Below, one piece after another: positions 2,063 through 42,883 of a stretch of DNA of 64,000 nt (its first letter is position 1; each line of letters begins with the position of its first letter). Location: contig NZ_JAKEVY010000001.1 in assembly GCF_021491375.1 (NCBI RefSeq), positions 1,116,001 through 1,180,000 on the forward strand, in the 5' to 3' direction. The notes under the pieces were generated by a model. It made no database searches and was not told where the DNA came from. It saw nothing but the letters and a program-made list of their open reading frames with translations. The stretch is from Flavihumibacter fluminis. Lineage in GTDB: Bacteria > Bacteroidota > Bacteroidia > Chitinophagales > Chitinophagaceae. A program made the position numbers and the translations under genes.

Positions 2063-2662
2063 TCAGCTCCTTTGCCTGATAAAAAAGAGACGCTTTAATC
2101 TCTTTTTGTAGTTGTTGCTCACAGGATATTTTCGATTCGGTGTAATATTATTGAATATCAGCGCCACCAGCAAAAGTACGAGTGCCCCGCTTAATACAGG
2201 AAACAGGATGTAATTATACCCCAATAACTTTATTTTATCCGAACCGATTACCGCCAATAAGGCGGTAGCACCACCAGGAGGGTGCAGAGTTTTGGTGAAT
2301 TGCATCGCAATGATAGAAAGCGATACTGCCAGGGGTGCAGTCAGCCAAATGATTTCAGGAAGCAGCGACTGCACACTAACGCCCACGAATGCAGAAACGA
2401 GATGGCCTCCAATTAAATTACGGGGTTGCGCCAACGGACTTTGGATCAAACCAAACACCAGTACACTGGATGCCCCGAATGATCCAATTAAAAATAAACT
2501 GTCAGAATCTTTAAGTAAAAAAATTTGCCAGAAAGCAATCAGTCCAATTCCGATGAAAGAACCCAGGAAGGACCAGAACTTCTCTTCCCGGTTTACTAAG
2601 GTTTCTCTGTAATAAATGTATCTGGTGTAGCGTAGTGTTCTTTTGACTCTCTTTTTCAGCAT
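2063..2662 (-). CDS. HPP family membrane protein
   Basis: This 199-residue integral membrane protein carries the family hallmark TKTLHPPGGATALLAV about two thirds along, with four to five hydrophobic segments and strongly basic termini. HPP proteins are predicted transporters or transporter-like membrane proteins; plant and cyanobacterial members have been linked to nitrite movement, which should not be assumed here. It is followed 16 nt upstream on the minus strand by the cold-shock gene, so the two may be cotranscribed. Confidence 0.85.
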   Translation of the reverse strand: MLKKRVKRTLRYTRYIYYRETLVNREEKFWSFLGSFIGIGLIAFWQIFLLKDSDSLFLIGSFGASSVLVFGLIQSPLAQPRNLIGGHLVSAFVGVSVQSLLPEIIWLTAPLAVSLSIIAMQFTKTLHPPGGATALLAVIGSDKIKLLGYNYILFPVLSGALVLLLVALIFNNITPNRKYPVSNNYKKRLKRLFFIRQRS

Positions 2663-2678
2663 AGACGGGTATCTGTGC

Positions 2679-3134
2679 TTATTTCATTTTTCTTACGTTG
2701 ATCGCACTATACCCTTTTGGTCCGCTTACTACTTCAAAATTTACTTTATCATTCTCAACCAGCCGGGTTTGCATCTCATTTACATGCACGAAAATGCTTT
2801 CCTGGCTTTGTAAATCACGTATAAAGCCAAACCCTTTTGCCTCATTCATAAAGGAAATGATACCGGAGCGAATCAAATCTTCCGGGGAAGGTTCTGCCTG
2901 CTTGGGAACACCGATCTGGATATCTTCCAGATTTACTTCCACCATGGTAGAAGGATCAGGCGGAGTGCTCACAATATTGCCATCGGCATCTATATAAGCC
3001 ATCATATCCTCGAGGGACTTACCTTTTTTTGCATCATTCTTCCTTTCTTCCTTGCGTTCTTCCTTCTCCTGCTTCTTTTTCGCCCGCTTTTTCTCCATCT
3101 CCTTTTTATTAAACGAATCCCTCGACCTAGCCAT
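2679..3134 (-). CDS. Cold-shock domain protein with basic N-terminal extension
   Basis: This 151-residue protein has a C-terminal cold-shock domain (about residues 88-150) with both RNA-binding motifs, KGFGFIRD and IFVHVNEM. The N-terminal 40 residues are a run of Lys, Glu and Arg (KKRAKKKQEKEERKEERK) followed by an acidic linker. Cold-shock domains bind single-stranded RNA or DNA, and the charged extension may add RNA contacts. It precedes the HPP gene on the same strand. Confidence 0.88.
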   Translation of the reverse strand: MARSRDSFNKKEMEKKRAKKKQEKEERKEERKNDAKKGKSLEDMMAYIDADGNIVSTPPDPSTMVEVNLEDIQIGVPKQAEPSPEDLIRSGIISFMNEAKGFGFIRDLQSQESIFVHVNEMQTRLVENDKVNFEVVSGPKGYSAINVRKMK

Positions 3135-3170
3135 AAGCGATGTATTTGATGAGGTATAAAGGTCGGCTTT

Positions 3171-3977
3171 TTATCCGCCATCAGCAAAACTTTCATAAAC
3201 GGCCATACCTCCGTCGATGAAAATGCTGGTGCCAGTTATATAGTCGGAATCGTCGGAAGCCAGGAATACCGCGAGTTTGCCTACATCATCCGGCTCACCA
3301 ATCCGGTTGTAGGGAATCAGGCTCATGAGCGACTGATAAGCTTCTTTTGTCTCCCAGGCTTCCCGGTTGATTGGAGTACGAATGGCACCCGGACAAATAC
3401 TATTAACCCGGATTTGCTGCGGACCGTATTCCTGCGCCAGGCTCTGCATCAGCATTTTAATGGCTCCTTTGGAGGCGGCATAGTTTACATGTCCGGCCCA
3501 TGGAATTAATTCATGCACAGAACTGATACAGATAATCTTTCCGCAAGCTTTGGATCTTTCGGGCTGATGTCCCCTTCTCAAAAACTCCCGGATCGCTTCC
3601 CGGGCACAGAGAAACTGTCCGGTCAGGTTTACATCAATCACTTTCTGCCATTGCTGCAAGGTCATTTCGTGAAAAGGAGCATCCTGCTGCAGGCCTGCAT
3701 TATTGATCAAAATATCAAGTGTGCCATATTGTTGAATTATTTCCCCAAACATGGAGAATACATCCTCTTCCTTACTGACATCTGCTTTAATGGCAATGGC
3801 ATCAGAACCATTTGTACGAATGGTGCTAACGACTTCCTCAGCTGCTTCCGCACCGGAATAATAATTCACAATAACTGCGGCACCGGCTTCGCCGAGGGCG
3901 ATCGCGATGGCTTTTCCTATGCCGGAACTGGCCCCGGTAACCAGGGCGATCTGGCCTTTTAATTTTTTCTCACTCAT
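3171..3977 (-). CDS. SDR family oxidoreductase (glucose 1-dehydrogenase-like)
   Basis: This 268-residue classical short-chain dehydrogenase has the dinucleotide-binding TGASSGIGKAIA at the N-terminus, NNAG near residue 90, the catalytic Ser in CISSVHE, the YAASK catalytic Tyr/Lys pair and the C-terminal ITGTSIFIDGGM. Family members of this subgroup are often annotated as glucose 1-dehydrogenases. The substrate is not fixed by sequence. It is transcribed divergently from prmC with only 62 nt between the start codons. Confidence 0.85.
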   Translation of the reverse strand: MSEKKLKGQIALVTGASSGIGKAIAIALGEAGAAVIVNYYSGAEAAEEVVSTIRTNGSDAIAIKADVSKEEDVFSMFGEIIQQYGTLDILINNAGLQQDAPFHEMTLQQWQKVIDVNLTGQFLCAREAIREFLRRGHQPERSKACGKIICISSVHELIPWAGHVNYAASKGAIKMLMQSLAQEYGPQQIRVNSICPGAIRTPINREAWETKEAYQSLMSLIPYNRIGEPDDVGKLAVFLASDDSDYITGTSIFIDGGMAVYESFADGG

Positions 3978-26557: not shown

Positions 26558-26663
26558 GACGGTTGTATTTTCAGTAGGACGGATCAAATCTCCAAAATGT
26601 TACAGCTATTTTATTTTTTTTGGCCTTAACTTGCAGCCAGATTACGGCCGTAGTCAAATATCA

Positions 26664-26748
26664 GTTTCCCGGGGTGCTGAGGATCTCCGATCCAAGGCTG
26701 AGATAATACCCGTTGAACCTGGTCAGGGTAATGCCTGCGCAGGGAAGG
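26664..26748 (+). promoter_or_regulatory. TPP riboswitch (THI element)
   Basis: The conserved blocks are present in order: closing stem TTTCCC (26665-26670) pairing with GGGAA (26742-26746), GGGGTGCT, a variable P3 stem GGATCTCCGATCC, GCTGAGATAATACCC (pyrimidine-binding T-loop region), GAACCTGGTCAGG (pyrophosphate-binding arm) and GGTAATGCCTGCGCAGGG. It sits 78 nt upstream of the TonB receptor start on the same strand, so that gene should be repressed when thiamine pyrophosphate is abundant. No clear terminator follows, suggesting translational control. Confidence 0.95.
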
Positions 26749-26825
26749 TGGTTGAATAACGTTTATTCCTCCTTTTGCTTTCGCAGCATTTCTCTCAAAT
26801 CATTTTTTCAACTTAATGAAACACA

Positions 26826-37643: not shown

Positions 37644-38318
37644 ATGACGCCACTTTTAGAGTTTTACATTTTTCAAACCTTTATAATAATAACCGGAACA
37701 ATAATATGTTTTCTATTTTCTAAAAACGGAAGTGAAAAAGAAAAACGTTATATTTTGCCATATTGCATTATTAGTGCGATTCTGATGTGCTTATTAATAC
37801 ATGCAAACATAATTTATGCGTCTCATTCTTACATATACGCATTAATGTATTTAGCTGGATGCAGTGAAATTCTACTAATTCCAAATTATATATCAACAAT
37901 AATGGGCAAGAAAAAACAAATTTTTACACAAATTGGAATTTGTTTGACTTCATTTATGATATCCAATTACTTTGTTCAAAATCCTACAACCCTACTTTAT
38001 TTATTTAGCAATCTGTATATAACCCTTTATACAGGAAAATATTTTATATGGTTGTTTAAAAATAATGAAAAATTGGATTTAAAGAATACACCCCATTACT
38101 GGATAATTATGGGTATTTGTATATGCTTTACTGGATCTATCCCCTATTATCTTTCTGAACTATTAATTATAAAATTCGAATCTATAGAAGTTTTTGCTGA
38201 AATTTCAAGCACATTTCATTCGACATTTATTATACTTAATATTACAATGTACTTTTTTTTTATTAAAGCATTTTTATGCAAGAAAAAATTTCTGAAGTCC
38301 TATTCTGGACAATATTAA
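37644..38318 (+). CDS. 7-TM membrane protein, putative sensor of triad A
   Basis: I do not recognise a named family. This 224-residue protein has seven hydrophobic segments at about residues 4-26, 36-58, 62-84, 92-110, 115-138, 150-173 and 180-211, with a Lys-rich C-terminal end. It resembles the product of 40656..41336 in length, topology and in the sixth helix (HYWIIMGICICFTGS here, SFWVVVGIMIYFSGT there). It overlaps the histidine kinase gene by 43 nt, so the two are translationally coupled. It probably supplies the membrane sensing part for the kinase. The gene is notably AT-rich. Confidence 0.75.
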   Translation: MTPLLEFYIFQTFIIITGTIICFLFSKNGSEKEKRYILPYCIISAILMCLLIHANIIYASHSYIYALMYLAGCSEILLIPNYISTIMGKKKQIFTQIGICLTSFMISNYFVQNPTTLLYLFSNLYITLYTGKYFIWLFKNNEKLDLKNTPHYWIIMGICICFTGSIPYYLSELLIIKFESIEVFAEISSTFHSTFIILNITMYFFFIKAFLCKKKFLKSYSGQY

Positions 38319-39082
38319 GCTCTGTACTTACGATCTTGCCTTTCATTTTATTCATAAATTATATAATCACATTATATAATAAAAAAAATATTGAATTTAA
38401 TACACAATTACAACTGAGAAATTTAGAAAAAGAGAAAGAAATACTAAAAACAAGAATTGATGTTCAAGAAGAAACTATTCAAAAAATATCTAAAGAATTA
38501 CATGATAATGTTAATCAAATTCTGACGCTAGCAAAACTCAATCTAAACGATTCCAATAATGAATTCAAGATTGACAAGATAAATGTTTCAAAGGATCTTA
38601 TCACCAATGCAATAAATGAATTATCTAACTTGTCTAACAGCCTTAGTTCGCAGCAGGTTAAAGATCTTGGAATAATTAGAAGCTTAGAAATCGAATGTGA
38701 TCGGATAATGAAAATAAAAAATATAATATTCTTAATTGAAAGTAACATTGCACATAATAACATCAATACAGAAGATCAAATAATTTTATATAGAATTTTC
38801 CAGGAAGGAACACGAAACTCTTTAATACATGGCCAGGCAAGCGCTATAGATATTAAATTCTTACAAACTGATGATTTCGAATATGTTTTTGAAATATCAG
38901 ATAATGGAAACGGCTTTGATCTAAACAACGAAGAGTTTATTGAAAAAAATAAATTGGGCACTCACCAAGGATTAAAAAATATGCAACGTAGGGCATCTAT
39001 TTTAAATGCTATTTTTTCCATTGAATCATCAATCAATTCGGGAACAATAATCAGTATCAGAAAACCTCGTACTAATCAATGA
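38276..39082 (+). CDS. Sensor histidine kinase of triad A (HisKA_3 type)
   Basis: This 268-residue kinase has one N-terminal transmembrane helix (FWTILSSVLTILPFILFINYIITLY), a coiled linker, and the dimerisation/phosphoacceptor helix with His76 in KELHDNVNQILTLAKLNL. The ATPase domain has QEGTRNSLIHG (N box), SDNGNGFDL (G1 box, Asp209 intact) and GTHQGLKNMQRRA (G2 box). This is the NarX/DesK/NreB class that works with NarL-type regulators. It lacks a periplasmic sensor of its own, so the overlapping 7-TM protein is the likely input. The convergent regulator gene overlaps its 3' end by 11 nt. Confidence 0.9.
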   Translation: MQEKISEVLFWTILSSVLTILPFILFINYIITLYNKKNIEFNTQLQLRNLEKEKEILKTRIDVQEETIQKISKELHDNVNQILTLAKLNLNDSNNEFKIDKINVSKDLITNAINELSNLSNSLSSQQVKDLGIIRSLEIECDRIMKIKNIIFLIESNIAHNNINTEDQIILYRIFQEGTRNSLIHGQASAIDIKFLQTDDFEYVFEISDNGNGFDLNNEEFIEKNKLGTHQGLKNMQRRASILNAIFSIESSINSGTIISIRKPRTNQ

Positions 39083-39731
39083 TTTTATTTCTCATTCCAT
39101 ACATGATTAATCCGGCTATAGTTTTTGCGCCAACTTTCGATTTCATGTTTTGACGAATAGTTTCTATTGTCCGTGGACTCAAAAAAACCTCTTTTGATAT
39201 TTCTTCTGTGGTCTTATCTTCAGCTAACAACTTAAGAATACGAACCTCTTTTTCTGAGAATTTTACAGGATTGGGATAAAATTGTTTTACGGCTTTCTTG
39301 GTCTGAAGTTTTGATAATACCGCCTTATTTACCAAATCGTTAAAATAGAAATCGTCATTCATGCAGGTCAATATTGCCTGATAAATTTCCTCCGGATCTG
39401 TTGTTTTTGTTAAGTAGGCATTAGCGCCCATTTCCATCATTTTCGAAATCATCTCCTGATCATCATACATTGTGAGAACAATAATTCTCACATCATCATA
39501 TTCTTTTCTCAACAAATTAATGGCATTAACCCCATCAATTTCTGGCATCCGAATATCCATTAAAAGCACATCCGGCTTTTTTAGCTGCATCTTATGCATC
39601 AGATCTTTTCCATCTTCAGCCTCCCATAAAATTTTGAGGTATTCTTTATTCTTTAGGGCCATCTTTATTCCATCCCTAAATATTTTATGGTCATCTGCTA
39701 TACTAACCTTTATGCTTAACTCGGAACTCAT
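39072..39731 (-). CDS. NarL/FixJ-type response regulator of triad A
   Basis: This 219-residue regulator has a receiver domain with the acidic pair in SIADDHKIFRDG, phosphoacceptor Asp59 in VLLMDIRMPE and the Lys in YLTKTTDP. A LuxR-type helix-turn-helix follows (FSEKEVRILKLLAEDKTTEEISKEVFLSPRTIETIRQ). It ends MRNKIID, closely like the regulator of triad B. It is convergent with its presumed kinase and divergent from the 128-residue protein gene, sharing a 467-nt AT-rich control region. Confidence 0.92.
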   Translation of the reverse strand: MSSELSIKVSIADDHKIFRDGIKMALKNKEYLKILWEAEDGKDLMHKMQLKKPDVLLMDIRMPEIDGVNAINLLRKEYDDVRIIVLTMYDDQEMISKMMEMGANAYLTKTTDPEEIYQAILTCMNDDFYFNDLVNKAVLSKLQTKKAVKQFYPNPVKFSEKEVRILKLLAEDKTTEEISKEVFLSPRTIETIRQNMKSKVGAKTIAGLIMYGMRNKIID

Positions 39732-40198
39732 GGTTTTTAGGGAGTTTGTGGATTTCGTTAAAGTATTCTAAGAACGATAAAAATGCTATTATCGTACTTT
39801 CACTCAAATTATTTTAATTAAACGTAATTACACTTTCTTTTTTTACGACCAATTTTCTTCTTTAATATACTCTCAAATAAGAATTCTAAAGTTCAATTAA
39901 AATGGCGCATACATTATTATTTAAATTAATACTTGTGTAAGCTTCCTTAAAAATCTTCTATATTAAGTAAATTATCTTAGTAGATCAACTATTATGTAAA
40001 TGTGGTTTTTACTAAAAAAGTAACGTATTTCTACTCGTTTTTTAATAGTAGATTAACTATCATATTCTTCGTAAACCTACTACCAGCCTGAATTTTATCC
40101 AATTTATAACAAATCGGGCAAGAAACACCCCATTGCCACTAGTTTTTTTTTAAAGGTTATTACGTCCCAAACCAACCCTTCACTAAAAACTTACTACT
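39732..40198. other. 467-nt AT-rich control region with duplicated dyad
   Basis: No credible gene is present. The region separates a leftward regulator gene from the rightward 128-residue protein gene. It contains two copies of AGTAGATYAACTATYAT (39979-39995 and 40047-40063), each embedding TAGTnGATYnACTA, a near-palindrome, 68 bp apart. A small TTACT/AGTAA inverted repeat lies near 40007-40023. No clean TAnnTTTG promoter box was found. Confidence 0.55.
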
Positions 40199-40585
40199 AT
40201 GATGCAAAATGAAATTTTGAACACCTCCCTGGCAGCTGTAGGAGAAGATATAGGTCCTGAGCTGGGTGCCAAAATGGTTAAGGACTTCCAGGATGCGTTC
40301 CCTAATGAGAACCCTTGGCTTTTTTGCGGGAAGAATATTATCCAAAATATTCTGAACCAACCGGATTGCCAGGGAATCAGATTTTATCATGCCTTGAATG
40401 AAAAAGGTGAAAAAACTCTAGTTTCAGTTGGAATTGATTCTTCAGGTAGTATTATCAGTCAAATTACAGTTATTGACACTTATGGTGAAATGAAGAAATA
40501 TAACGCAATAGTTGCAGATAGGAAAGAACCACCAGGCATAAAAACAACCGGAACTACCACCACTACTCTTGATTGGTGGTTTTAA
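40199..40585 (+). CDS. Unrecognised 128-residue protein with Thr-rich, Trp-Trp-Phe tail
   Basis: I do not recognise a family. Residues 1-55 look helical (VGEDIGPELGAKMVKDFQDAF, then CGKNIIQNILNQPDC, with two Cys at 43 and 57). Residues 58-105 look like beta hairpins (GIRFYHALNEKGEKTLVSVGID, then SQITVIDTYGEMKKYNAIVAD). Residues 107-128 are a flexible tail, Arg-Lys-Glu-Pro-Pro-Gly followed by a Thr run and ending Leu-Asp-Trp-Trp-Phe. There is no signal peptide or membrane helix. It heads the triad B gene run and is followed by a strong hairpin, an arrangement that would give far more of it than of the receptor genes. A signal, substrate or cofactor of the relay is possible but unproven. Confidence 0.7.
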   Translation: MMQNEILNTSLAAVGEDIGPELGAKMVKDFQDAFPNENPWLFCGKNIIQNILNQPDCQGIRFYHALNEKGEKTLVSVGIDSSGSIISQITVIDTYGEMKKYNAIVADRKEPPGIKTTGTTTTTLDWWF

Positions 40586-40613
40586 TACTATTTCGTAGTA
40601 TCAAAAAAATAAT

Positions 40614-40664
40614 AAAACACAAAAGCATTGTTATATTTGATGTAACAATGCTTTTGTGTTTTTA
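40614..40664 (+). terminator. 20-bp hairpin overlapping the start of the second 7-TM gene
   Basis: Arms 40614-40633 and 40643-40662 pair perfectly around a 9-nt loop, and the right arm runs into TTTTTATT. It should terminate most transcripts from the 128-residue protein gene. The GTG start of the next gene (40656) lies in the right arm, so readthrough RNA would have its start codon buried. Confidence 0.85.
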
Positions 40665-41336
40665 TTAGACTTTACATATATTTCTTATATAATAACAATT
40701 ATCATCTTCTTTGTATTCGCTAAAAACAATAGGAATACGGGTTCATTAATTGTTATTGTTTATACATGCTATTCATTAATAAATGATATTGTAATTGAAA
40801 AAAAACTATTGAATAGTATTGGTATAGACTCTACTTTTTTAATGTCTATTTTTACGATTGTAGAATTTACGTTTCTTTTCTACTACCTATCCCATATCTT
40901 GGCAAACAAGAAGATAAAAGCTTTCTTATTTGTTTCTACATTTATTTTTTTTATTGTAGCTTTTGTCAATATTTATAAAAATTTTGTTCAAAATTCCCTA
41001 TCGCTTGACACAATTCCAATAGCAGTAAGTTCAATAATTTTAATCATTGGATCAATAGCATATTTTTTTGAACAAATTCAAACTCCCGAAGTTTCATTTA
41101 TTTATAGCAAACCTAGTTTTTGGGTTGTAGTTGGTATTATGATTTACTTTTCAGGGACTTTCTTTCTTTTTTTGCAATACGAAAATCTTTCTGATACTGA
41201 TAAAAAGACTTTCTGGATTATCAACATGTTTTGTCTGATCCTGAAAAATATTTTCTTTTCAATATCGTTTATCTTAAAACCTGAGAATCAACAAATTTCG
41301 AATGTTGATGATTATTATTTAAATAAACTAGAATAA
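40656..41336 (+). CDS. 7-TM membrane protein, putative sensor of triad B
   Basis: This 226-residue protein has seven hydrophobic segments at about residues 6-22, 29-47, 59-82, 87-107, 119-141, 152-173 and 183-206, and a polar C-terminal tail (KPENQQISNVDDYYLNKLE). The sixth helix region KPSFWVVVGIMIYFSGTFFLF is shared with many Chitinophagaceae proteins encoded beside kinases, as far as I recall. It is a paralogue of the 37644 gene. The start is GTG, aligned with the N-terminus of its paralogue (LLDF versus LLEF). The kinase gene follows after 26 nt. The gene is very AT-rich. Confidence 0.75.
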   Translation: MFLLDFTYISYIITIIIFFVFAKNNRNTGSLIVIVYTCYSLINDIVIEKKLLNSIGIDSTFLMSIFTIVEFTFLFYYLSHILANKKIKAFLFVSTFIFFIVAFVNIYKNFVQNSLSLDTIPIAVSSIILIIGSIAYFFEQIQTPEVSFIYSKPSFWVVVGIMIYFSGTFFLFLQYENLSDTDKKTFWIINMFCLILKNIFFSISFILKPENQQISNVDDYYLNKLE

Positions 41337-41362
41337 AACAACCAGCTAACCCTACCCCCTAA

Positions 41363-42190
41363 ATGTTGCTTTTACAGGTAAATACCTCAGGTGCAAATGT
41401 GTCCCTAGTGCTCTTTTTTGGCACTATTGGGATGCTCGCATTAACTATCGGCCTCATCGTTTTCATCATTTTCCACCAGCGAAAGGTTATCCGGTACCAG
41501 ATGACCCTGCAAAAAATGGAACAGGAACAGCAGAAAATGTTGCTGAATGCATCCATCCGCTTACAGGAAGAAGAACGCCAACGCATAGCTGCTGACCTGC
41601 ACGACGATGCCGGTCCTCTCCTTGCCACCGCCCGACTTTACCTCAACGAAAACCTGGTAAACCTGGACAAAACAACCCAGCTCCAGAGTATTTACAATGC
41701 CAAACAAATCATTGACGATACCATCCAGCTGATCCGGAATATCTCCCACAGCCTGATGCCCCCTACCCTGAAAAATTTCGGTCTTGAATCCGCCGTAAAT
41801 GATCAGTTTCAAAAGATCAGCAGCTCCGGAATCATCAATGCCAGTTGCCGTTTTCATGATTACAAAGAACGCCTTCAAACTGATAATGAACTGATTGTAT
41901 TCCGGGTAATCCAGGAATTGATCAATAATATACTCAAACACAGCAACGCCAGTTTTATCCATTTGACCCAAAACACAAATGGAAATAAATTCTATATAAG
42001 GATGCACCACGATGGAAAAGGCATCACTCAGGCAGACTTTGAACGGATGAATAAAAGCGCTGCCGGACTGGGGTTGAAAAACATCCAAAGTCGCCTTAAA
42101 GTGCTGCACGGCAGAATCTTCTTTGAAAAAGATGCATCCCAAACCTATTACAAGGTCACCATTGAGCTAAACAGAGAGGATAATCAGTGA
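41363..42190 (+). CDS. Sensor histidine kinase of triad B (HisKA_3 type)
   Basis: This 275-residue kinase has one transmembrane helix (VLFFGTIGMLALTIGLIVFIIF), a coiled linker, phosphoacceptor His80 in RQRIAADLHDDAGPLL, and an ATPase domain with IQELINNILKHSNAS (N box) and AAGLGLKNIQSRL (G2 box). The G1 box reads His216-Asp-Gly-Lys-Gly where the family has Asp-x-Gly-x-Gly, so the adenine-contacting Asp appears replaced by His. Base composition is much more GC-rich than the 7-TM gene before it and like the rest of the chromosome. It should phosphorylate the regulator encoded 42 nt downstream. Confidence 0.9.
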   Translation: MLLLQVNTSGANVSLVLFFGTIGMLALTIGLIVFIIFHQRKVIRYQMTLQKMEQEQQKMLLNASIRLQEEERQRIAADLHDDAGPLLATARLYLNENLVNLDKTTQLQSIYNAKQIIDDTIQLIRNISHSLMPPTLKNFGLESAVNDQFQKISSSGIINASCRFHDYKERLQTDNELIVFRVIQELINNILKHSNASFIHLTQNTNGNKFYIRMHHDGKGITQADFERMNKSAAGLGLKNIQSRLKVLHGRIFFEKDASQTYYKVTIELNREDNQ

Positions 42191-42232
42191 GGAATCCTTA
42201 TTTTTACTACTCGCGAATAGTGCAAGATTCCT

Positions 42233-42883
42233 ATGAGAGTAATCAAAGTAGCCATTGCTGACGACCATAAGATTTTCAGGAAAGGAGTTATACTTTCCCT
42301 TCGACCCTTCACCAATATCAAATTTGTTCAGGAGGCCGAAAACGGCAACGAATTAATTGAAGGACTGGCTGAATCAGCCCCTGATGTCATTTTGATGGAT
42401 CTCAGAATGCCTGTTAAAGATGGAATCGAAACCACCAAGTTTATCGCCAAAACCTACCCCAACATCCATATCGTTGTACTGACCATGTTCGAGGATGAGC
42501 GATTTGTAAGTCATCTGATGGAGATCGGTGCCAATGGGTATTTATTAAAAAGTGCAGACCCCTCAGAAATCCGGAGGGCTATCATGGAAGTATTTGAGAA
42601 GGGGTATTACCTGAACAATTTCGTCAACCGCATCCTTCTAAAAAAATCCCACGCTAAACAAAAAGTAATTCCCAGCCTGAGCAGCGAAATTACACTTACA
42701 GACAGGGAGCGGGATGTTATCAAATATATCTGCATGGAATTCACCGCCTCGGAAATTGCTCAGAAAATGGAAGTGAGTCCCCGAACAGTTGAAGCCATCA
42801 AGGATCGACTTATGGAAAAGTTCGGCACTAAAAACACTGCCGGACTCGTTTTCTACGCAGTTAAAAACAACCTGATTGATTGA
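42233..42883 (+). CDS. NarL/FixJ-type response regulator of triad B
   Basis: This 216-residue regulator has a receiver with AIADDHKIFRKG, phosphoacceptor Asp56 in VILMDLRMPV and Lys in YLLKSADP. The LuxR-type helix-turn-helix reads LTDRERDVIKYICMEFTASEIAQKMEVSPRTVEAIKD. It ends VKNNLID, matching the end of the triad A regulator. A 7-bp inverted repeat (AGGAATC at 42190-42196, GATTCCT at 42226-42232) spans the gap to the kinase gene and abuts the ATG. Convergent with the CoA-transferase operon. Confidence 0.93.
   Translation: MRVIKVAIADDHKIFRKGVILSLRPFTNIKFVQEAENGNELIEGLAESAPDVILMDLRMPVKDGIETTKFIAKTYPNIHIVVLTMFEDERFVSHLMEIGANGYLLKSADPSEIRRAIMEVFEKGYYLNNFVNRILLKKSHAKQKVIPSLSSEITLTDRERDVIKYICMEFTASEIAQKMEVSPRTVEAIKDRLMEKFGTKNTAGLVFYAVKNNLID

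Follow-up and report, generated by a model that had tools for sequence, protein, structure and literature searches.

The stretch of Flavihumibacter fluminis DNA analyzed here (64,000 nucleotides, hereafter the window; positions 1,116,001 to 1,180,000 of contig NZ_JAKEVY010000001.1, assembly GCF_021491375.1) contains a four-gene unit that encodes a 128-residue small protein (SM), a seven-helix membrane protein (7TM-B), a histidine kinase (HK-B), and a response regulator (RR-B), preceded by a second set of 7TM, HK, and RR genes (7TM-A, HK-A, and RR-A; A and B denote the two sets). All seven open reading frames (ORFs) were found in the places and order that a preliminary description of this DNA had given them (Table 1). 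Pfam searches identified HATPase_c in both kinases and Response_reg together with GerE in both regulators, while HisKA_3 exceeded its cut-off in HK-B alone (30.5 bits; HK-A scored 16.3 against a cut-off of 24); with HisKA_3 of HK-A below cut-off, the locus carries the kinase and regulator domains of a HisKA_3/NarL two-component system. Neither Pfam nor NCBIfam yielded a family for SM of the window, and the 7TM proteins gave sub-cut-off matches only.

Table 1. Genes and other features of the SM locus (window positions)
Feature	Position	Strand	Description
7TM-A	37644-38318	+	224 aa; paralogous 7TM without its own SM
HK-A	38276-39082	+	268 aa; histidine kinase of 7TM-A, overlapping 7TM-A by 43 bp
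RR-A	39072-39731	-	219 aa; second NarL-type regulator, fixed divergent neighbor of SM in Chitinophagaceae
Operator-like palindrome GTA-N4-TAC, copy 1	40025-40034	.	Intergenic, RR-A/SM
Operator-like palindrome GTA-N4-TAC, copy 2	40071-40080	.	Intergenic, RR-A/SM
SM	40199-40585	+	128 aa; alpha/beta core of ~108 aa and variable tail with aromatic end DWWF; lacks an export signal
High-pS block	40352-41258	+	SM codon 52 to 7TM-B codon 201; saturated synonymous divergence from the nearest species found
Hairpin/large dyad	40610-40667	+	Between SM and 7TM-B; folding z -7.2; contains TATATTTG
7TM-B	40656-41336	+	226 aa; GTG start inside the hairpin; N-out; separate seven-helix putative receptor
HK-B	41363-42190	+	275 aa; HisKA_3 kinase, one N-terminal membrane helix, no sensor domain
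RR-B	42233-42883	+	216 aa; NarL-type response regulator of the SM unit

The order of the unit is conserved well beyond Flavihumibacter. A scan of named genomes through SM, with ORFs called mechanically, gave 66 loci, including Pontibacter, Hymenobacter, Mucilaginibacter, and Fluviicola; two Gemmatimonadetes records among the SM loci are metagenome assemblies, in which such loci may be contaminants. A 7TM ORF directly follows SM in 63 of the 66 loci (the exceptions are L136, L137, and L140; such labels denote compared loci), and the next recognized gene is a kinase in 61 of these, with a regulator ORF instead in L124 and L130 and a small opposite-strand ORF between 7TM and kinase in L134. The full order SM-7TM-HK-RR is present in 54 of the 66, and the regulator is missing from seven loci, namely L117, L119, L120, and L123, plus L101, L118, and L134, whose stretches stop at that point. 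In a whole-genome search with SM only, for which coordinates were compared by hand, 36 of 41 SM matches have a 7TM match just downstream; among the other five, one proved to have a 7TM on closer look and another is situated at the end of a contig. Three of the 41 matches are followed by an unrecognized ORF with 6-7 hydrophobic segments and then by an HK. At L137:6046-7267 (Hymenobacter), tandem SM genes occur with no recognized 7TM.

The same linkage is seen from the 7TM side. We called 86 7TM genes in 76 of 80 stretches, of which 78 surround better-scoring 7TM places outside Chitinophagaceae and two surround SM matches. The gene directly after 7TM is an HK in 67 cases, another 7TM in seven, SM in three, an RR in two, another gene in three, and a gene on the opposite strand in four. 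When 7TM and SM genes are skipped, 76 of the 86 reach an HK, and three further kinases missed by the HK profile (a PAS kinase in L185, a hybrid in L192, and a LytS-type kinase in L219) bring the total to 79, leaving seven 7TM genes with no route to an HK (L188, two in L208, L214, L228, one in L231, and L242). The 7TM-like protein at L188:3086-3997 (-) has 303 residues and stands beside a DUF4440/SnoaL protein, not a kinase. Upstream, 77 of the 7TM genes have a same-strand non-7TM ORF, and iterated SM profiles recruited 65 of these as SM relatives; seven other ORFs that the profiles picked up in the 80 stretches all look like SM on inspection. Ten of the 12 unrecruited ORFs were judged by eye to end in a proline/cysteine tail or one like it, and two do not (the second copy in L209, and L221). 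In an additional set of 20 stretches, 19 of them from Chitinophagaceae, 21 of 22 recognized 7TM genes lead to an HK, with SM upstream of 13, an unrecognized ORF upstream of six, and nothing or another 7TM upstream of three. The neighborhood, whose conservation the preliminary description had set beforehand as a test, is thus kept in many Bacteroidota: the small protein belongs with 7TM, as had been proposed, and 7TM genes lacking a kinase, which had been named as the observation to count against the proposal, are not the rule.

SM is present in 44 of 195 sampled genomes of Chitinophagaceae and in 31 of 296 genomes of the phylum. The 7TM-B query found a 7TM in 118 of the 195 family genomes and the 7TM-A query in 16, while a wider alignment used as query found it in 62 of the 296 phylum genomes; some genomes hold several 7TM copies. 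We rejected phage or plasmid cargo as an origin of the unit, having found no SM relative in viral contigs and no 7TM-B match in plasmids.

The preliminary description had presented two paralogous triads flanking the small protein, with RR-A as the regulator of triad A. Paralogy stands for each pair of proteins: RR-A and RR-B share 39% identity over 213 aa, HK-A and HK-B share 27% over 248 aa, and 7TM-A and 7TM-B, which share merely 29% over 51 aa (E = 2e-4), each recruit the other when used as seed of iterated profiles. The picture of two equal triads around SM did not survive comparison, nor did the assignment of RR-A. Of 47 Chitinophagaceae loci, 46 carry ahead of SM a divergent regulator that shares 73-100% identity with RR-A (partial in L099), and the one remaining locus, L086, begins at a contig edge. 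An upstream 7TM, in contrast, was recognized in 10 of the 47, and forward upstream regulators, where present, are 27-31% identical to RR-A. Hence, RR-A belongs with the SM locus rather than with triad A, and triad A is a lineage-specific neighbor without an SM of its own. Compared with L079, 7TM-A and HK-A are 46% and 67% identical, while the ispH-like gene and HK-B are kept at 92% and 100%, suggesting that species may exchange triad A as well. In 16 of 47 Chitinophagaceae loci (L086-L089, L091, L095, L098, L099, L102-L105, L107, and L110-L112), RR-B is followed by a second 7TM that has neither SM nor HK (SM-7TM-HK-RR-7TM). Further features of the window are flanking genes that we take from their sequences to be ispH, scoA, scoB, and coaBC, and a TPP riboswitch at 26660-26763 (+ strand).

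The intergenic region between RR-A and SM carries a conserved palindrome. The word GTA-N4-TAC, picked from these same regions, occurs in all 47 of them with a total of 98 sites, compared with a mean of 10.2 and a largest value of 18 in mononucleotide shuffles. The two-site form found in the window (40025-40080) occurs at one place in the genome, and a regulon search with it returned the SM promoter only; single copies of the palindrome are no rarity in the window, with 12 sites where 6.6 are expected. SM expression is probably under the control of the module. In Flavihumibacter, the gap between SM and 7TM-B holds a strong hairpin, within which lies TATATTTG (40632-40639), which we take to resemble the -7 promoter element of Bacteroidota. 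The hairpin region may be the promoter of 7TM-B, the end of the SM transcript, or both, and because these elements lie between the two genes, transcription in this genus may not simply run from SM into 7TM-B. As a general feature of the unit the hairpin was rejected, since z < -3 was obtained in just 16 of 48 Chitinophagaceae gaps (40 mononucleotide shuffles each).

7TM-B is predicted with high confidence to form seven helices (mean pLDDT 93.5, pTM 0.89). Lysine and arginine residues number 2.56 per sequence in loop 1-2, 1.38 in loop 3-4, and 2.92 at the C-terminus, placing these elements inside and the N-terminus outside. The top Foldseek matches of the model are mainly G-protein-coupled receptors (GPCRs) and some rhodopsins, with query TM-scores near 0.5 (Ste2, 7ad3: probability 1.00, query TM-score 0.53); the best E-value in this search was 0.016, with no match at 1e-3 or better. 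The predicted likeness to GPCRs is one of shape only and no proof of kinship: seven sequential helices, an outside N-terminus, and a short C-terminal helix are common to 7TM-B, GPCRs, and microbial rhodopsins, but 7TM-B has no significant sequence or structural match to them, is neighbored by histidine kinases, and lacks a conserved helix-7 lysine. A retinal-type receptor was rejected on this last point, as no lysine is found among columns conserved at 55% or above in 52 sequences; Bac_rhodopsin matched one of the 52 members (E = 0.025). At a threshold of E 0.1, these members listed 19 Pfam families, each matching one member only, the best being Nucleos_tra2_N (E = 0.0009); 7TMR-DISM_7TM matched one member at E = 0.08. 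No above-cut-off match to a known Pfam 7TM sensor domain was seen, with cut-offs displayed for the matches of the first member only. Helix 6 is the most conserved 7TM helix. As the preliminary description had held, 7TM proteins sit with kinases devoid of a sensor domain: of 67 kinases adjacent to 7TM, 65 carry a single hydrophobic segment within their N-terminal 90 residues. The kinase types found with 7TM are HisKA_3, PAS-HisKA, LytS-type, and hybrid (Pfam).

SM combines a conserved core with a variable tail. An alignment of 22 relatives has eleven core positions without variation (G15, G44, I47, L52, Q54, P55, C57, G59, V75, G78, and G96), and an AlphaFold model of moderate confidence contains three helices, four strands, and a disordered tail; no convincing PDB match was obtained by sequence (best E = 0.59) and none by structure at E 1e-3. 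Tail length is variable; in Chitinophagaceae most tails end in aromatic residues, while distant relatives often end in a form like CPPxC..NxLNS, and some, such as L117, have both. Tail motifs match 60 of 70, 67 of 77, and 13 of 19 upstream proteins in three sets, with a pattern that was devised after viewing the sequences and is descriptive only. The ORF at L189 (about 2381-3133, +) holds two SM domains, and at L261, from 2844-3248 (+) onward, a third full unit of the window's genome consists of a lipoprotein SM ending in PCPTVCGKNP followed by 7TM, HK, and RR.

Export signals bear on which side of the membrane SM occupies. Scored by a crude rule (signal peptide, lipobox, or N-terminal anchor), for proteins encoded upstream of 7TM, they are found in none of 70 from the named loci (about 65 SM and five ispH-like genes), in 25 of 77 in the phylum set, and in nine of 19 in the remaining set, the last two sets including a few non-SM proteins. 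SM could instead be a cytosolic gain-control protein or adaptor on the cytosolic face of 7TM and HK, with an environmental molecule in the 7TM bundle as the real stimulus. This alternative fits the lack of export signals in the named loci, the kinases without sensor domain, and the observation that lipobox and non-lipobox SM relatives of one genus keep the same gene order (L234, L235, L238, and L245 against L230 and L244). It does not readily accommodate the upstream proteins of the phylum set and of L261 that bear an export signal by this rule, or a periplasmic 7TM half that is the more variable one (entropy 2.19 compared with 1.86 for the cytosolic half in 40 loci; p = 0.003 without the C-tail, and p = 0.096, not significant, with it), and we consider it rather unlikely. 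In the same genus, L230 and L235 are 55% identical in SM, 41% in 7TM, and 59% in HK, and a three-frame inspection upstream of L234, L235, and L245 revealed no visible leader.

SM and 7TM change faster than the kinase and regulators with which they are encoded. In a set of 40 loci including the window, median identity of the 39 others to the window is 45% for SM, 31% for 7TM, 84% for HK, 83% for RR-B, and 90% for RR-A. The partial correlation of SM and 7TM distances, given both regulators, is 0.233, a value reached in 0 of 200 permutations, while the partial values for SM-HK and 7TM-HK are -0.31 and -0.17. Among ten further close pairs, the nonsynonymous divergence (pN) of SM exceeds that of HK in all ten and that of 7TM exceeds that of HK in nine; among ten pairs outside Chitinophagaceae, 7TM identity is below HK identity in eight and above it in L235/L245 and L220/L222. 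A comparison of SM between L224 and L210 was left out, the ORF upstream in L210 being on the opposite strand. Such rates, together with the AT-rich composition of 7TM-B (25% GC) and the position of 7TM as the fastest-diverging protein, could also reflect ordinary accessory linkage, in which 7TM is a weakly constrained membrane anchor, SM an unrelated passenger, and fast change the result of relaxed selection. We find this highly improbable given that the linkage survives between classes, and in the Gemmatimonadetes records, despite very low identity, that the SM core retains its invariant positions and 7TM its conserved helix 6, and that residues 152-201 of 7TM-B, between the window and L077, have a pN of 0-0.06 at a synonymous divergence (pS) of 0.85-1.19. 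This segment, nearly unchanged in its residues, is consistent with a conserved output face.

L077, Flavihumibacter cheonanensis, is the nearest species found, with HK-B, RR-A, and RR-B 100% identical (rounded), SM 80%, and 7TM-B 69%. Between it and the window, pS climbs along SM from 0.12 in codons 2-26 to 0.82 in the tail, remains elevated as far as 7TM-B codon 201, and then drops at a sharp edge to 0.07 in 7TM-B codons 202-226 and 0.00 in HK-B codons 2-26. The resulting block, whose borders were picked after viewing the pS plot, has a pS of 0.77, and ten genes flanking it have 0.31 (Fisher p = 1e-32); the highest value for any segment of the same length in the flanks is 0.45. Base composition was rejected as the source of the raised 7TM-B divergence, as the AT-rich control 7TM-A+HK-A has a pS of 0.30. 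Joint exchange of the SM tail and 7TM is the simplest reading, and it is probable, judging from this one clear pair, that the two are exchanged together as an allele block. SM and 7TM could also be the toxin and the membrane immunity protein of a bacteriocin-like pair whose production the two-component system controls; the fast change and probable joint exchange of the two, and the conserved palindrome before SM, would fit this. But 7TM occurs with HK even where SM is lacking (7TM-A, L271, and L276), runs of SM-7TM-7TM-7TM-HK exist (L182 and L206), sensor-less kinases of several families adjoin 7TM, and six proteins searched gave no match in PADLOC (anti-phage defense) at E 0.01; a toxin and immunity pair is thus very unlikely.

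Our conclusion is that 7TM serves the kinase as receptor and has SM as its cognate partner, and, on balance, we lean modestly toward a split-receptor two-component module in which 7TM reads its own small protein. In such a module, 7TM-B would act as receptor and pass its state, most likely through conserved helix 6, perhaps also helix 7, to the single membrane helix of HK-B, whose cytosolic part would phosphorylate RR-B and possibly RR-A. The SM core would present its flexible C-terminal tail as a ligand or plug of the 7TM bundle, presumably by direct binding; the position, variability, and exchange of the tail suggest this role, and the tails so presented would be aromatic in Chitinophagaceae and CPxxC-like or PP-rich elsewhere. 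SM and 7TM would diversify on a slowly evolving HK/RR chassis, and one of the regulators of the unit may act on the palindromes before SM, closing a feedback loop. A more far-reaching version, in which the SM tail is read outside the cell by a GPCR-shaped 7TM on interchangeable kinases, species-specific alleles are exchanged as blocks, and the signal gene is under feedback, would make the unit a self-recognition or quorum-type system of Bacteroidota and some Gemmatimonadota; we regard this version as doubtful.

Several observations weigh against a module in which 7TM reads SM. SM of the window lacks an export signal, as do the upstream proteins of all named loci, and with such signals present in other sets a partner of this kind would occupy different membrane sides. 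Some 7TM copies, 7TM-A among them, lack an SM. The SM model has a pLDDT of only 66.8, with the tail below 50. Changes in 7TM between the window and L077 are not one-sided (34 of 105 periplasmic and 36 of 96 cytosolic residues). The distance correlation is weak support for co-evolution, as 7TM-RR-A (0.39) and SM-RR-B (0.22) are comparably high. Block exchange is clear in one pair and equally clear in none of ten other Chitinophagaceae pairs: between the window and L079, pS is 0.72 in 7TM, 0.66 in SM, 0.38 in HK, and 0.47 in RR-B, but 0.64 in RR-A, and the nine other pairs have no clear pS rise. The palindrome was counted in the very regions that supplied it, and the genome-wide two-site search says little because a backward control also gave one place per strand.

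By kind, the locus is a two-component system whose receptor and partner are separate proteins. HK-B, RR-A, and RR-B share their domains with NarX/DesK-type HisKA_3 kinases and NarL-type regulators, from which the locus differs in that the putative sensor is a separate 7TM protein. Among the openly licensed papers listed in literature searches, no title or abstract opening described an SM-7TM-HK-RR unit. The agr system (agrBDCA) is likewise a four-gene unit, in which a kinase and a regulator go with a polytopic membrane protein and a small variable protein. As the roles of AgrB and AgrC are understood, the agr kinase carries a polytopic peptide-binding sensor; no such kinase sensor was seen here, where HK is conserved and has one membrane helix. 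In addition, the polytopic protein of the SM unit matches no peptidase family, nor is the unit known to give rise to a processed or exported peptide. According to a study of agr, agrBDC are linked to one another but not to agrA, so that the variable block recombines apart from the regulator (PMC8768832). The SM unit resembles agr in having a variable block, the separate exchange of which is clear in one species pair and not in ten others. The LytS-type kinase BtsS has, as outlined in its report, seven helices with a periplasmic N-terminus that sense for the kinase (PMC10653868); those helices lie inside the kinase, whereas here they form a separate unclassified protein that is accompanied by SM and occurs with kinases of several types. 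DbfQRS of Vibrio cholerae, as summarized in its report, includes a periplasmic small protein that is encoded beside the HK and RR and modulates their pathway (PMC12714742), and differs from the SM unit, where a separate 7TM gene lies between small protein and kinase.

No Pfam or NCBIfam family takes in SM or 7TM of the window above its cut-off, yet SM occurs in 44 and 7TM-B in 118 of the 195 sampled Chitinophagaceae genomes. 7TM is a plausible receptor for many kinases that have no sensor domain, which would make it a bacterial seven-helix receptor in the form of a separate protein. If SM is indeed its ligand, the unit would constitute a protein-based signaling system in Bacteroidota.

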